Assembly (NCBI GenBank): GCA_015488735.1
Contig: WFNG01000261.1
Location: forward strand, 1 to 39,883
Direction of reading: 5' to 3'
Origin: Bacteroidales bacterium
GTDB taxonomy: Bacteria > Bacteroidota > Bacteroidia > Bacteroidales > F082
DNA length: 39,883 nucleotides
Each line of letters begins with the position of its first letter. Positions within the stretch are counted from its first letter, which is position 1. The notes beneath the pieces are model-generated. The model did no database searches, was not told the origin of the DNA, and worked only from the letters and a program-made list of their open reading frames with translations. The translations under genes were made by a program, and so were the position numbers. Positions 36,226 through 38,385 of the stretch are shown here, piece by piece.

Positions 36226-37365
36226 TCAAACAGGTACTTTTTGCCTGTTTTGCATCGACTGTAAACTGTTTTTAAAGATATCATGGAGCCGGTTTCCTTC
36301 AAATTCAGCCTGCAGTGATTGAAAAACCTCTTTTACGGATTGTATTTTGGTTGCTTTAAAAGCATTGCTTCCGGCAAAAACAAACCCGTTTTTTAATTTT
36401 CCTTTGGCCGCGTTGATGAGTGCCAGCGAAATGCAGTAAGGCGCCTTTTTATAATCACAGGTTTTCAGGCATTGCCACGGGCAGCTGACAGGATGTTTTT
36501 TCCCGGAAGAAACATCTTTTAAAAACTGGTTGTTGATTGCCCTTCCCGGTAAGCCGACAGGACTGTCAATCAGGACAATATCCTCCGGTTTGCTGTTGAC
36601 GTAAGCCTCTTTGAATTCGCGGGAAGCATCACATTCATAAGTGGGTACTAACCGGGTAGCGATCTGTACGCCTTGTGCCCCCAGCTTCATTATCCTGAAA
36701 ATATCAGCGCCGGAATATATTCCTCCGGCTGCAATGACAGGGATATTTCTTCCGAATTTTTCTTCAAAAGGTTTTAAGGCTTCAATGACAGCAGGAATAG
36801 TGGTTTCCAGTGAATAAACCTGGTTTTCAATTTGTGTTTTTTTATATCCCAGATGTCCGCCGGCTTTGGGGCCTTCCACCACCACCGCATCGGGGATTAC
36901 ATTATAATGACTTTCCCAGTACCTGAAAATTAATCCCGCAGCTTTGGCGGAAGAAACTATGGGCAAAAACTTGGTTTTGTTCTTTTCTCTTTTGTCTTTA
37001 ATAAGAATATCCGGCATGCGCAGAGGAAGCCCGGCACCTGAAATAATTAAATCGGCTTTTTCTTCCACGGCAACTTTCATGTGGTCCTCATAATCGGTAA
37101 GGGCCACCATAATGTTCACCCCGATAATTCCTTTTGTTTTTTCCCTGGCTTTCCGTATTTCGTTGCGCAGGGCAAGTTTGTTGGCACTTCTGAAATCTTT
37201 GGCAAAATCGGGAATCAGCATACCTATTGCGGCAGATGAGATTATTCCTATTCCTCCTTCGTTGGCTACAGCCGAAGCCAGTCCTGATAATGAAATAGCG
37301 ACGCCCATTCCCCCTTGTATGATGGGAAGTCTTGCTTCAAGGTCACCTATTTTTAATGAATTCAT
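36226..37365 (-). CDS. Nitronate monooxygenase/FabK-like flavin oxidoreductase with four-Cys motif
   Basis: 379 residues from the ATG at 37365. TIM-barrel FMN enzyme of the 2-nitropropane dioxygenase family: IIQGGMGVAISLSGLASAVANEGGIGIISS at the N-terminus, KAGGHLG (phosphate/substrate loop) and PVIAAGGIYSG, then GAQGVQIATRLVPTYEC. Near the C-terminus lies C295-x3-C299-x3-C303-x7-C311 (CPWQCLKTCDYKKAPYC), which is not in the classic fungal or Pseudomonas enzymes and could hold metal or an Fe-S cluster. The substrate is unknown; trans-enoyl reductase (FabK-like) activity is an alternative. An in-frame extension to 37416 overlaps the promoter boxes and is not preferred. Confidence 0.87.
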   Translation of the reverse strand: MNSLKIGDLEARLPIIQGGMGVAISLSGLASAVANEGGIGIISSAAIGMLIPDFAKDFRSANKLALRNEIRKAREKTKGIIGVNIMVALTDYEDHMKVAVEEKADLIISGAGLPLRMPDILIKDKREKNKTKFLPIVSSAKAAGLIFRYWESHYNVIPDAVVVEGPKAGGHLGYKKTQIENQVYSLETTIPAVIEALKPFEEKFGRNIPVIAAGGIYSGADIFRIMKLGAQGVQIATRLVPTYECDASREFKEAYVNSKPEDIVLIDSPVGLPGRAINNQFLKDVSSGKKHPVSCPWQCLKTCDYKKAPYCISLALINAAKGKLKNGFVFAGSNAFKATKIQSVKEVFQSLQAEFEGNRLHDIFKNSLQSMQNRQKVPV

Positions 37366-37389
37366 AAAATAAATATTTTTGTTCTCCGG

Positions 37390-37421
37390 CAAATTTAAAG
37401 ACATAAATGCTGGCAAATTTA
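37390..37421 (-). promoter_or_regulatory. Two -7 promoter boxes (TAAATTTG) upstream of the flavin oxidoreductase gene
   Basis: On the minus strand exact TAAATTTG boxes occur at 37390-37397 and 37414-37421, 24 nt apart. The nearer lies 24 nt before the ATG. The tandem repeats at 37426-37507 start just upstream of the distal box. Confidence 0.5.
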
Positions 37422-37425
37422 TTTT

Positions 37426-37507
37426 AGGGATTGGGCAAAACAGAATAGGGACAAACGGGCAGTTTAGGGACGAACGGACAAAATACAGGGACGAAACGAC
37501 AAGGCCT
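37426..37507. repeat. Four imperfect ~20-bp tandem repeats, candidate LytTR operator
   Basis: Units begin AGGGAT or AGGGAC at 37426, 37447, 37466 and 37487 (spacings 21, 19 and 21 nt). The best unit reads AGGGACGAACGGACAAAA. They lie just upstream of the flavin oxidoreductase promoter boxes and downstream of the LytTR regulator gene. Spacing of about two helical turns fits side-by-side binding by a LytTR-type protein, which recognises tandem direct repeats; this link is inference. Confidence 0.5.
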
Positions 37508-37530
37508 TTTAGGAGAAAAGGGAAAAAGGA

Positions 37531-38385
37531 TCACGATTTGTAGAATAATTCTTTAAATGCAGGGATATATTTTCGGGAAACAGACACCTTGTGCTGATCT
37601 TCGCCAACATAAAGTACGTATCCCTGAGAGTTCCCCTCCAAGTGTCTTATTTGATGGATGTTGACCAAAAAAGCACGATGACATTTGAAAATATACGGGT
37701 AAATGCTGCTGGCTTCTTCTGCGCACTTCAATGTACATCTCACCATTTGAGAGTGGATTCCTTTTCTGTCCTGCCAGAAAACTTCGATATAATTATTGGC
37801 AGAACGGATATATAAAAGTTCATCTGCTTCCACGGATAAATCATCTTTATCATAATCTGACCGAAGATGAATTATCTTTGGCAAAGGATTGGCTTTTTCA
37901 TTTAAATGCCGGTTCAGCTCCAGAGCAGATTGTAAATGAAGCCTTAACAAACGGTTCCTGTTATATGGAATCAGGATGCTAACCGGGATGGCACTCAAAA
38001 TCAGCACTTTTACTAAAATATAAAAACTAAAGCTAAAATGTCCGATAATTTTGAAATAGATAAAATATCCGGTGGCAATGGTGAAAATAATCCAGATATT
38101 CCATAAAATTTCTTTCAGGACAGTCCATTTTCTAAACAAATGCATGTTGGACAGAAACGCCGGTATCAACAACAGATTAATACTTAATCCAAGAAATATA
38201 ACCACAATAAGCCCGCCAATCAGGAAAAACTTTTCCTGTGAATCGAGCATATTTATGTCGAATGGCCGGAAAATAAAAAAGAGGACAAACAGAATCAGGC
38301 TAATCGCAAAAATTATCCGGGTATTCTGTTTAAAATCATCGTTAAATGGATAAGACTCTTTTAATATTTCAGACCATTTTGCCAT
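37531..38385 (-). CDS. Membrane-bound LytTR-family transcription regulator
   Basis: 284 residues. Four predicted membrane helices lie in the first half (about 24-41, 54-76, 90-111, 117-141), then a linker and a C-terminal LytTR DNA-binding domain (about 180-280). The domain has the family landmarks LLYIRSANNYIEVFW, FKCHRAFLVNIHQIRHLEG and VSVSRKYIPAFKELF. There is no receiver or kinase domain, so it is a one-component membrane regulator that probably senses a membrane or envelope signal. It ends 24 nt before the last tandem repeat and about 166 nt before the flavin oxidoreductase start codon. Autoregulation or control of that gene is plausible but not shown. Confidence 0.9.
   Translation of the reverse strand: MAKWSEILKESYPFNDDFKQNTRIIFAISLILFVLFFIFRPFDINMLDSQEKFFLIGGLIVVIFLGLSINLLLIPAFLSNMHLFRKWTVLKEILWNIWIIFTIATGYFIYFKIIGHFSFSFYILVKVLILSAIPVSILIPYNRNRLLRLHLQSALELNRHLNEKANPLPKIIHLRSDYDKDDLSVEADELLYIRSANNYIEVFWQDRKGIHSQMVRCTLKCAEEASSIYPYIFKCHRAFLVNIHQIRHLEGNSQGYVLYVGEDQHKVSVSRKYIPAFKELFYKS

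Follow-up and report, generated by a model that had tools for sequence, protein, structure and literature searches.

The window that we analyzed, a stretch of 39,883 nucleotides from a Bacteroidales bacterium, carries a short array of direct repeats between a gene for a LytTR regulator with four predicted transmembrane (TM) helices and a gene for an NMO/FabK-like flavin oxidoreductase, all on the minus strand. The regulator gene (37531 to 38385, minus strand) encodes a predicted membrane one-component protein of 284 amino acids, in which the four TM helices are followed by a helical stalk and a LytTR domain at about residues 168 to 284. LytTR (PF04397) is the only Pfam family matched by this protein (49.3 bits, compared to a cut-off of 22.6), and the hydropathy peaks fall at residues 24 to 42, 56 to 74, approximately 93 to 115, and 121 to 139. 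An AF2 model (pLDDT of 86) has four long helices, the last of which continues as the stalk into the LytTR fold. When this model was compared to known structures with Foldseek and VIA-align, the top matches to the beta fold of the LytTR domain were 3d6w, ComE, and AgrA (Z of 12.9 to 14.4). AgrA, which has been solved with promoter DNA, matches the predicted fold with a Z of 13.4 and an rmsd of 1.9. The fold search with the TM half gave no convincing match (best Z of 5.8).

One study describes FhRhHRS as the hallmark motif of LytTR domains and implicates it in the DNA contact of AgrA (PMC4227749). The protein in the window carries IFKCHRA at residues 232 to 238, which keeps the H and the R and has I, K, and A in place of F, R, and S. 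Among 51 relatives, the majority motif is IFKCHRS, with H236 invariant and R237 conserved in at least 90%. A search of the regulator for the MHYT family gave no match at E ≤ 0.001, and its four TM helices compare to seven in proteins of the CoxC type.

The flavin oxidoreductase gene (36226 to 37365, minus strand) encodes 379 amino acids when read from the ATG at 37365 and matches Pfam NMO with 176.9 bits. A longer frame with a TTG start, reaching 37416, would open ahead of the conserved −7 box described below. The score against NCBIfam FabK (TIGR03151) is 137 bits, far below the cut-off of 453, and the predicted product can be safely named only as an NMO-family flavin oxidoreductase.

An earlier note on this DNA had reported four units beginning AGGGAC/T at 37426, 37447, 37466, and 37487, in steps of 21, 19, and 21 nucleotides, and this description is accurate. 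On the coding (minus) strand, the array consensus is TTYRYCCCTRA, and the boxes follow one another in the order TTCGTCCCTGT, TTCGTCCCTAA, TTTGTCCCTAT, and CCAATCCCTAA. Box 1 occupies 37485 to 37495 (CCCT from 37490), with conservation evident in the columns of our alignment A1, and box 2 occupies 37464 to 37474 (CCCT from 37469). Box 3 lies at 37445 to 37455 (CCCT from 37450). The promoter-proximal box 4 (37424 to 37434, CCCT from 37429), which corresponds to the unit at 37426, is a weaker copy with a degenerate 5′ half. If the units are read as 9-bp TTYRYCCCT elements, they are separated by gaps of 12, 10, and 12 bp. Tandem Repeats Finder, run with a minimum score of 30, does not include the array in its output. 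Elsewhere in the window, the non-coding contig end (39471 to 39800) holds short repeats (ACGAATTAC and CACCAAGGT) together with GC-rich, palindrome-like stretches.

The array is far beyond what chance would produce. Using a matrix built from 31 loci that all lie outside the LytTR clade of the window, it scores 48.4 bits. With this matrix, the best four-box chain on the plus strand of the 39.9-kb window reaches 0.4, and the top six chains on the minus strand all fall inside the array (37411 to 37450). With a matrix that includes the window, the observed score of 52.8 was reached by 0 of 2,000 dinucleotide shuffles of the spacer, the best of which scored 25.8. Furthermore, we built a sequence-only model (R1) from 36 training rows, all of them spacers between LytTR and NMO genes and the window among them, and at E ≤ 10 it picks out a single site in the window, the array itself (E of 6.1e-18). 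Autoregulation of the LytTR gene through a second upstream array was considered and dismissed, since nothing in the window other than the array is matched at this threshold.

Three elements have a bearing on how the array is placed relative to transcription of the flavin oxidoreductase gene. First, a Bacteroidota −7 element, TAAATTTG (TAnnTTTG), lies at 37390 to 37397 on the minus strand, 32 nucleotides from the CCCT of box 4. Among the 43 loci with a LytTR–NMO spacer that are described below, TAnnTTTG starts at +32 from the first C of this CCCT in 36 cases, and 2 others have it at +33. Second, another copy of TAAATTTG is found at 37414 to 37421 (minus strand), and TAnnTTTG occurs at this +8 position in the window alone of the 43 loci; it is probably a chance occurrence. 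The earlier note had proposed both as promoter boxes, and only the first is at a position conserved in relatives. Third, no conserved −33 box is apparent, as only 7 of 34 loci have a TTG at 15 to 23 nucleotides ahead of the −7 box. A sigma-70 promoter scan also returned nothing, which is unsurprising in Bacteroidota. Between box 4 and the point where the NMO match starts there are 61 to 156 nucleotides, a variation of about 95 nucleotides, in the 41 loci with a four-box chain (the value for L067 marks merely the end of the cropped stretch).

A published analysis places −7 elements of the TAnnTTTG type at −12 to −5 (PMC9723704). Transcription would thus start near 37385. Given a −7 box at −12 to −5, box 4 of the window falls at about −49 to −39, with boxes 3, 2, and 1 each about 20 nucleotides farther upstream. 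This layout would suit an activator site at a promoter that is missing one of its own elements.

The array follows the stop codon of the LytTR gene on the same strand, so it could be transcribed from upstream, and the repeat might act as RNA (a leader, attenuator, or terminator) in read-through from that gene. We rejected an RNA element on the grounds that RNAalifold predicts 0 pairs for an alignment of 36 sequences and that positions 36900 to 38000 contain no Rfam match at E ≤ 1. Likewise, no terminator-like site is present in 37300 to 37600, and the spacing of the array is locked to the downstream promoter element. We therefore regard a role as RNA as highly improbable.

Relatives of the LytTR protein were found at 39 loci in public genomes and also in 36 of 60 related genomes, and the close relatives typically have an NMO homologue as the next gene downstream. 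An array is present in all 43 of the LytTR–NMO spacers examined. The loci include L072, from the cultured relative Breznakibacter xylanolyticus DSM 6779, which has both the gene pair and the array. Four-box chains with scores of at least 29 account for 41 of these, and R1 recovers the arrays of L083 (55.7 bits) and L094 (32.2 bits), which are hidden from the chain scan by a cropped spacer. This set of 43 excludes duplicates from the same contig (L061 to L064 and L073) and a locus with a stray NMO fragment (L060), and it includes L067, whose contig ends early. Both alignment A1 and R1 were made from 36 of the 43 loci (without L043 to L046, L048, L083, and L094). In the 36 aligned loci, the distance from box 1 to box 4 is 60 to 62 nucleotides, and information peaks in the boxes, at up to 2.3 bits per column, and is low between them (mostly below 0.5). 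The CCC of box 2 is kept in 36 of 36 rows for relatives, and the CCCT of box 3 is often replaced by ACCT or AACT.

We then asked which of the two flanking genes the array accompanies. NMO homologues occur at 27 places in 25 of the 60 genomes. At 13 of these places a LytTR relative is in the locus, and 12 have an array (E ≤ 1e-3); the remaining pair, L161, has a weak array match (E of 0.047). The other 14 places have no LytTR relative in the locus, and a preceding array was found at none of them, or at 0 of the 13 with usable upstream sequence. This sequence extends for 1.5 kb at 11 places, 193 nucleotides at L150, and 273 nucleotides at L155, where in both cases a LytTR gene might exist past the contig end, and the 3 nucleotides at L142 permit no test. 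At L162, a partial match (E of 0.002) lies on the far side of the NMO gene. In two of the 14 cases (G035 and G007), an array is located farther up, before a radical SAM or acyl-CoA dehydrogenase gene, and that gene separates the NMO gene from a LytTR gene. R1 also finds arrays (35.7 to 44.9 bits) behind LytTR relatives that are not next to an NMO gene at L038, L039, L040, and L041. The first gene after the array encodes a fatty acid desaturase at L038, a radical SAM protein at L040, and an acyl-CoA dehydrogenase at L041, and none is listed at L039. By these comparisons, it is the LytTR gene, rather than the NMO gene, that the array accompanies.

A genome-wide search for the unit near other LytTR genes had been proposed in the earlier note as a check of the operator reading, and its outcome agrees. 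In the 60 genomes, a LytTR relative is present no more than 1 kb from 17 of 21 strong R1 matches (E ≤ 1e-3), or from 10 of 14 when the 7 training rows are removed. The LytTR list for this count holds 39 protein matches plus one PF04397 gene among the matches listed, and the PF04397 genes outside it are mostly of response-regulator length. Proximity drops as the matches weaken, to 4 of 9 at E values between 1e-3 and 1e-2 and to 3 of 66 between 1e-2 and 0.1. Widespread occurrence of the repeat with no link to LytTR genes, which the earlier note had named as the outcome that would count against an operator, is thus not what we observe: strong matches are mostly LytTR-linked, and the link fades among weak ones. 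A phylum-wide R1 search gave matches at E ≤ 0.001 in 6 of 395 genomes, including that of the window, and it says little about the spread of the array because 9 candidates per genome were scored.

The four strong rows that lie away from LytTR genes comprise two rows for one place in G024, one in G038, and a weak one in the genome of the window (G000:C42). The G024 place (L131:2505-2687, on G024:C11) consists of two adjoining array matches, with at least about seven boxes by eye, before a gene for a FadD-like acyl-CoA ligase. No LytTR relative is present in the 5.5 kb examined. This strong array is the main point in favor of the view that a different regulator occupies the boxes, for instance a global Bacteroidota regulator of lipids or stress, and that the LytTR gene is simply a conserved neighbor. 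The G024 genome has LytTR relatives elsewhere, however, so a membrane LytTR protein encoded at a distance could have this site among its targets. In addition, NMO genes without a LytTR relative lack the array, and the arrays behind LytTR relatives precede differing target genes. We thus judge binding by another regulator to be improbable and retain the adjacent LytTR protein as the probable ligand.

The G038 match (L133:2245-2320, on G038:C35) comprises GC-rich direct repeats (TTCGCCCCTACA) near a contig end and beside a frame that resembles a transposase by eye. The match looks like a REP-type repeat imitating the array. This case, and the fact that the array consists of direct repeats in an intergenic region, would be in keeping with a selfish or structural repeat (REP-like or mobile). 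Several observations stand against this origin for the array of the window. The short unit, searched with up to 2 mismatches on both strands, has 31 matches in the window's genome compared to 62 for a reversed control, and thus is not over-represented. Its two exact genomic copies are both within the array, and this genome yields two R1 matches, a strong one and a marginal one. There is also no plasmid match, and the position relative to promoter and gene is fixed across genera. We give a selfish or structural origin next to no credence. The additional genomic match, G000:C42 (E of 9.2e-4), precedes a gene for a D-Ala-D-Ala-ligase-like protein (named by eye). The site was sought at the same gene in 11 congeners and was not found. 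It is the sole extra match that would indicate a wider regulon in the window's genome, and we set it aside as chance or private to this genome.

The association weakens in more distant parts of the LytTR family. Among 69 of 70 further LytTR loci with enough flanking sequence, the downstream flank scores higher than its own reverse complement in 67 and higher than all 100 shuffles in 52, and it fails the latter comparison in 17; this set includes copies of training loci. An R1 match at E ≤ 0.01 was found in 9 of the 18 loci that either failed or had too little flank. After removal of six more duplicates, there are 124 distinct LytTR loci. In 44 of the 81 distinct loci that are outside the training set and have enough flank, the array score exceeds 15. 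The more distant subfamilies of LytTR have weak arrays or none, with variants such as TTCATCCCA and TTCGTCACA.

Several individual loci depart from the common arrangement. The close LytTR relative at L182 has neither an array nor an identified downstream gene, and repeated short frames (MGIRIIAAYLALCVGDRNII...) are found behind the LytTR gene (L182:101-1296), perhaps through an insertion or rearrangement. At L159 (G017:C200), the LytTR match before the NMO gene looks broken, with four stops (two TGA and two TAA), and the array persists. At L132 (G056:C8), L138 (G057:C114), and G024:C9:79742-79837, the array match instead lies upstream of the LytTR relative, on its divergent side. In some lineages, the array may thus act on the divergent neighbor or on the regulator's own gene.

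The genes that follow the LytTR relatives were then tallied. Of the 124 distinct loci, 65 have an NMO-like gene in first place downstream, 14 a radical SAM-B12-DUF4070-like gene, and 6 a methyltransferase gene. Acyltransferase, desaturase, acyl-CoA dehydrogenase, and other genes are present in smaller numbers, 15 are unnamed, and 12 loci have none listed. The dominance of NMO in these counts arises in part because the seed protein was a LytTR of the NMO type. A radical SAM or methyltransferase gene followed by a fatty acid desaturase gene is found at eight loci (L215, L219, L222, L225 to L228, and L237), and the array is unclear in some of the desaturase loci (scores of 11 for L215 and −12 for L225). 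The desaturase of L038 is nearest to NCBIfam Delta(5) DesA, with 397 bits compared to a cut-off of 500. In the non-NMO loci, a gene of lipid type is among the first three in 15 of 59 distinct loci. This tally used queries that had themselves been taken from downstream genes; they left 15 of the 124 first genes unmatched, and the gap limit excluded L038. As a control, Pfam families were counted for the loci outside the NMO group, irrespective of whether an array is present. FA_desaturase matches 10 of the 70 genes that lie downstream. Among the 50 upstream genes it accounts for at most 1, as it is not among the best 25 of 60 families. Among the families listed for upstream genes, none is common to more than 3. 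Judging from these gene contents, the lipid theme downstream of LytTR relatives is real as a tendency.

Two further observations concern these downstream genes. At L197, the first gene after the LytTR gene and array (503 to 1354) passes the NCBIfam cut-off for GlsA, a lyso-glycine-lipid acyltransferase, and an NMO gene comes next. A family of genes of approximately 605 amino acids, without a Pfam or NCBIfam match, is first after LytTR relatives at L218:1993-3810, L235:1923-3737, and L052:2455-3801 (an incomplete copy), and is once followed by an acyl-CoA dehydrogenase gene.

Known LytTR systems provide a basis for comparison. The broad consensus for LytTR sites is [TA][AC][CA]GTTN[AG][TG]. By eye, box 2 matches this consensus at 9 of 9 positions (TCCGTTCGT) and box 3 at 8 of 9, boxes 1 and 4 match poorly, and the G of the consensus is not conserved in the boxes of relatives. 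AgrA and ComE, which share the LytTR fold according to the fold search, belong to the response regulators; they carry a receiver domain and lack a TM part. At its promoters, AgrA acts as an activator from a pair of upstream direct repeats (PMC4227749), compared to the four sites found here. More generally, the sites described in PMC11347149 are pairs of 9-bp direct repeats separated by 10 to 13 bp, mostly activating and upstream of the −35 element. The array agrees with this pattern both in its repeats of about 9 bp, spaced 10 to 13 bp apart, and in the promoter-adjacent location typical of LytTR operators, given the fixed spacing of 32 nucleotides between box 4 and the −7 element (36 of 43 loci). 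In the LRS of Streptococcus mutans (HdrRM and BrsRM), 9-bp direct repeats that are mostly 12 bp apart lie just upstream of the promoter (PMC6193735). LytTR control is tied to the membrane in both cases. However, the LRS as described there have a separate regulator and membrane inhibitor and repeats that drive their own operon, whereas the protein studied here combines TM and LytTR parts in 284 amino acids and its array lies downstream of the LytTR gene, before the next gene.

The closest parallels are RcoM and CoxC of CO-oxidising Proteobacteria, which use three direct repeats of 8 bp (spaced by 12 to 13 bp for RcoM), according to PMC11347149. CoxC is described there as a membrane-bound MHYT-LytTR repressor whose sites overlap the −35 box (PMC11347149). 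Like RcoM and CoxC, the regulator of the window is a one-component LytTR protein, and like CoxC it is predicted to be bound to the membrane. In contrast to those systems, there are four boxes with the core TTYRYCCCTRA rather than TTCNNGCA, four TM helices without an MHYT match, and boxes upstream of the promoter core, as well as a different phylum and different target genes.

CoxC also illustrates how an operator for the same LytTR protein could be repressive, with bound domains that block or trap the promoter until a signal releases them, and sequence linkage cannot separate an activator from a repressor. Three features of the locus argue for activation instead. The last box ends at about −39, with the −7 box fixed 32 nucleotides on, rather than overlapping a −35 element as for CoxC; the relation of boxes to promoter is the usual one for LytTR activators; and the lack of a conserved −33 box suits a promoter that needs help. 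Repression therefore seems rather unlikely to us, although it is the strongest of the alternatives.

Taken as a whole, the four-box array works like a LytTR operator and very probably is one. The earlier note had suggested that the adjacent membrane LytTR regulator could use the repeats as its operator, and comparative genomics supports this suggestion. In its full form, as an activator operator for a dedicated, membrane-bound LytTR one-component regulator encoded just upstream, we consider the proposal highly likely. The regulator would be anchored in the inner membrane by its four helices, and its LytTR domains, held near the membrane, would contact the boxes. With a period of about two helical turns, the boxes would lie on approximately one face of the DNA. 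The bound domains would extend to about −39, adjacent to RNA polymerase. With a good −7 element and no conserved −33 box, the promoter is one from which the NMO/FabK-like gene would most likely be activated. Binding itself, activation rather than repression, and a cooperative filling of the four sites are each what we would expect from this arrangement.

Because several related regulators sit before genes for lipid enzymes, we speculate that the state of membrane lipids could be the signal. A broader proposal is that a widespread Bacteroidota family of four-TM LytTR proteins senses membrane lipids and directly activates genes for lipid remodelling through tandem arrays, each with about four boxes, whose distance from the promoter is fixed. 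The targets would include NMO/FabK-like reductases, desaturases, acyltransferases, acyl-CoA enzymes, and B12-radical SAM enzymes. We offer this proposal tentatively, as a possibility that falls somewhat short of even. In the DesK–DesR system of Bacillus, a kinase and a response regulator form a two-component system for membrane fluidity, in which a membrane sensor controls a desaturase gene. A desaturase gene also follows the array in L038, but the likeness is an analogy only, and no homology is claimed.

Membrane-anchored regulators are common in Bacteroidota (PMC10269533). Our literature search, mainly of openly accessible papers, found no description of a four-box operator or of a LytTR–NMO pair of regulator and target, and it gave no operator for membrane-anchored LytTR regulators of this phylum. 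The motif, together with its fixed promoter geometry and gene link, is usable for calling targets in many genomes. If the broader proposal is true, these proteins would be a one-protein Bacteroidota counterpart of the two-component systems that sense fluidity, and the link to lipids would hint at how Bacteroidota might adjust their membranes by means of a single membrane-bound protein.
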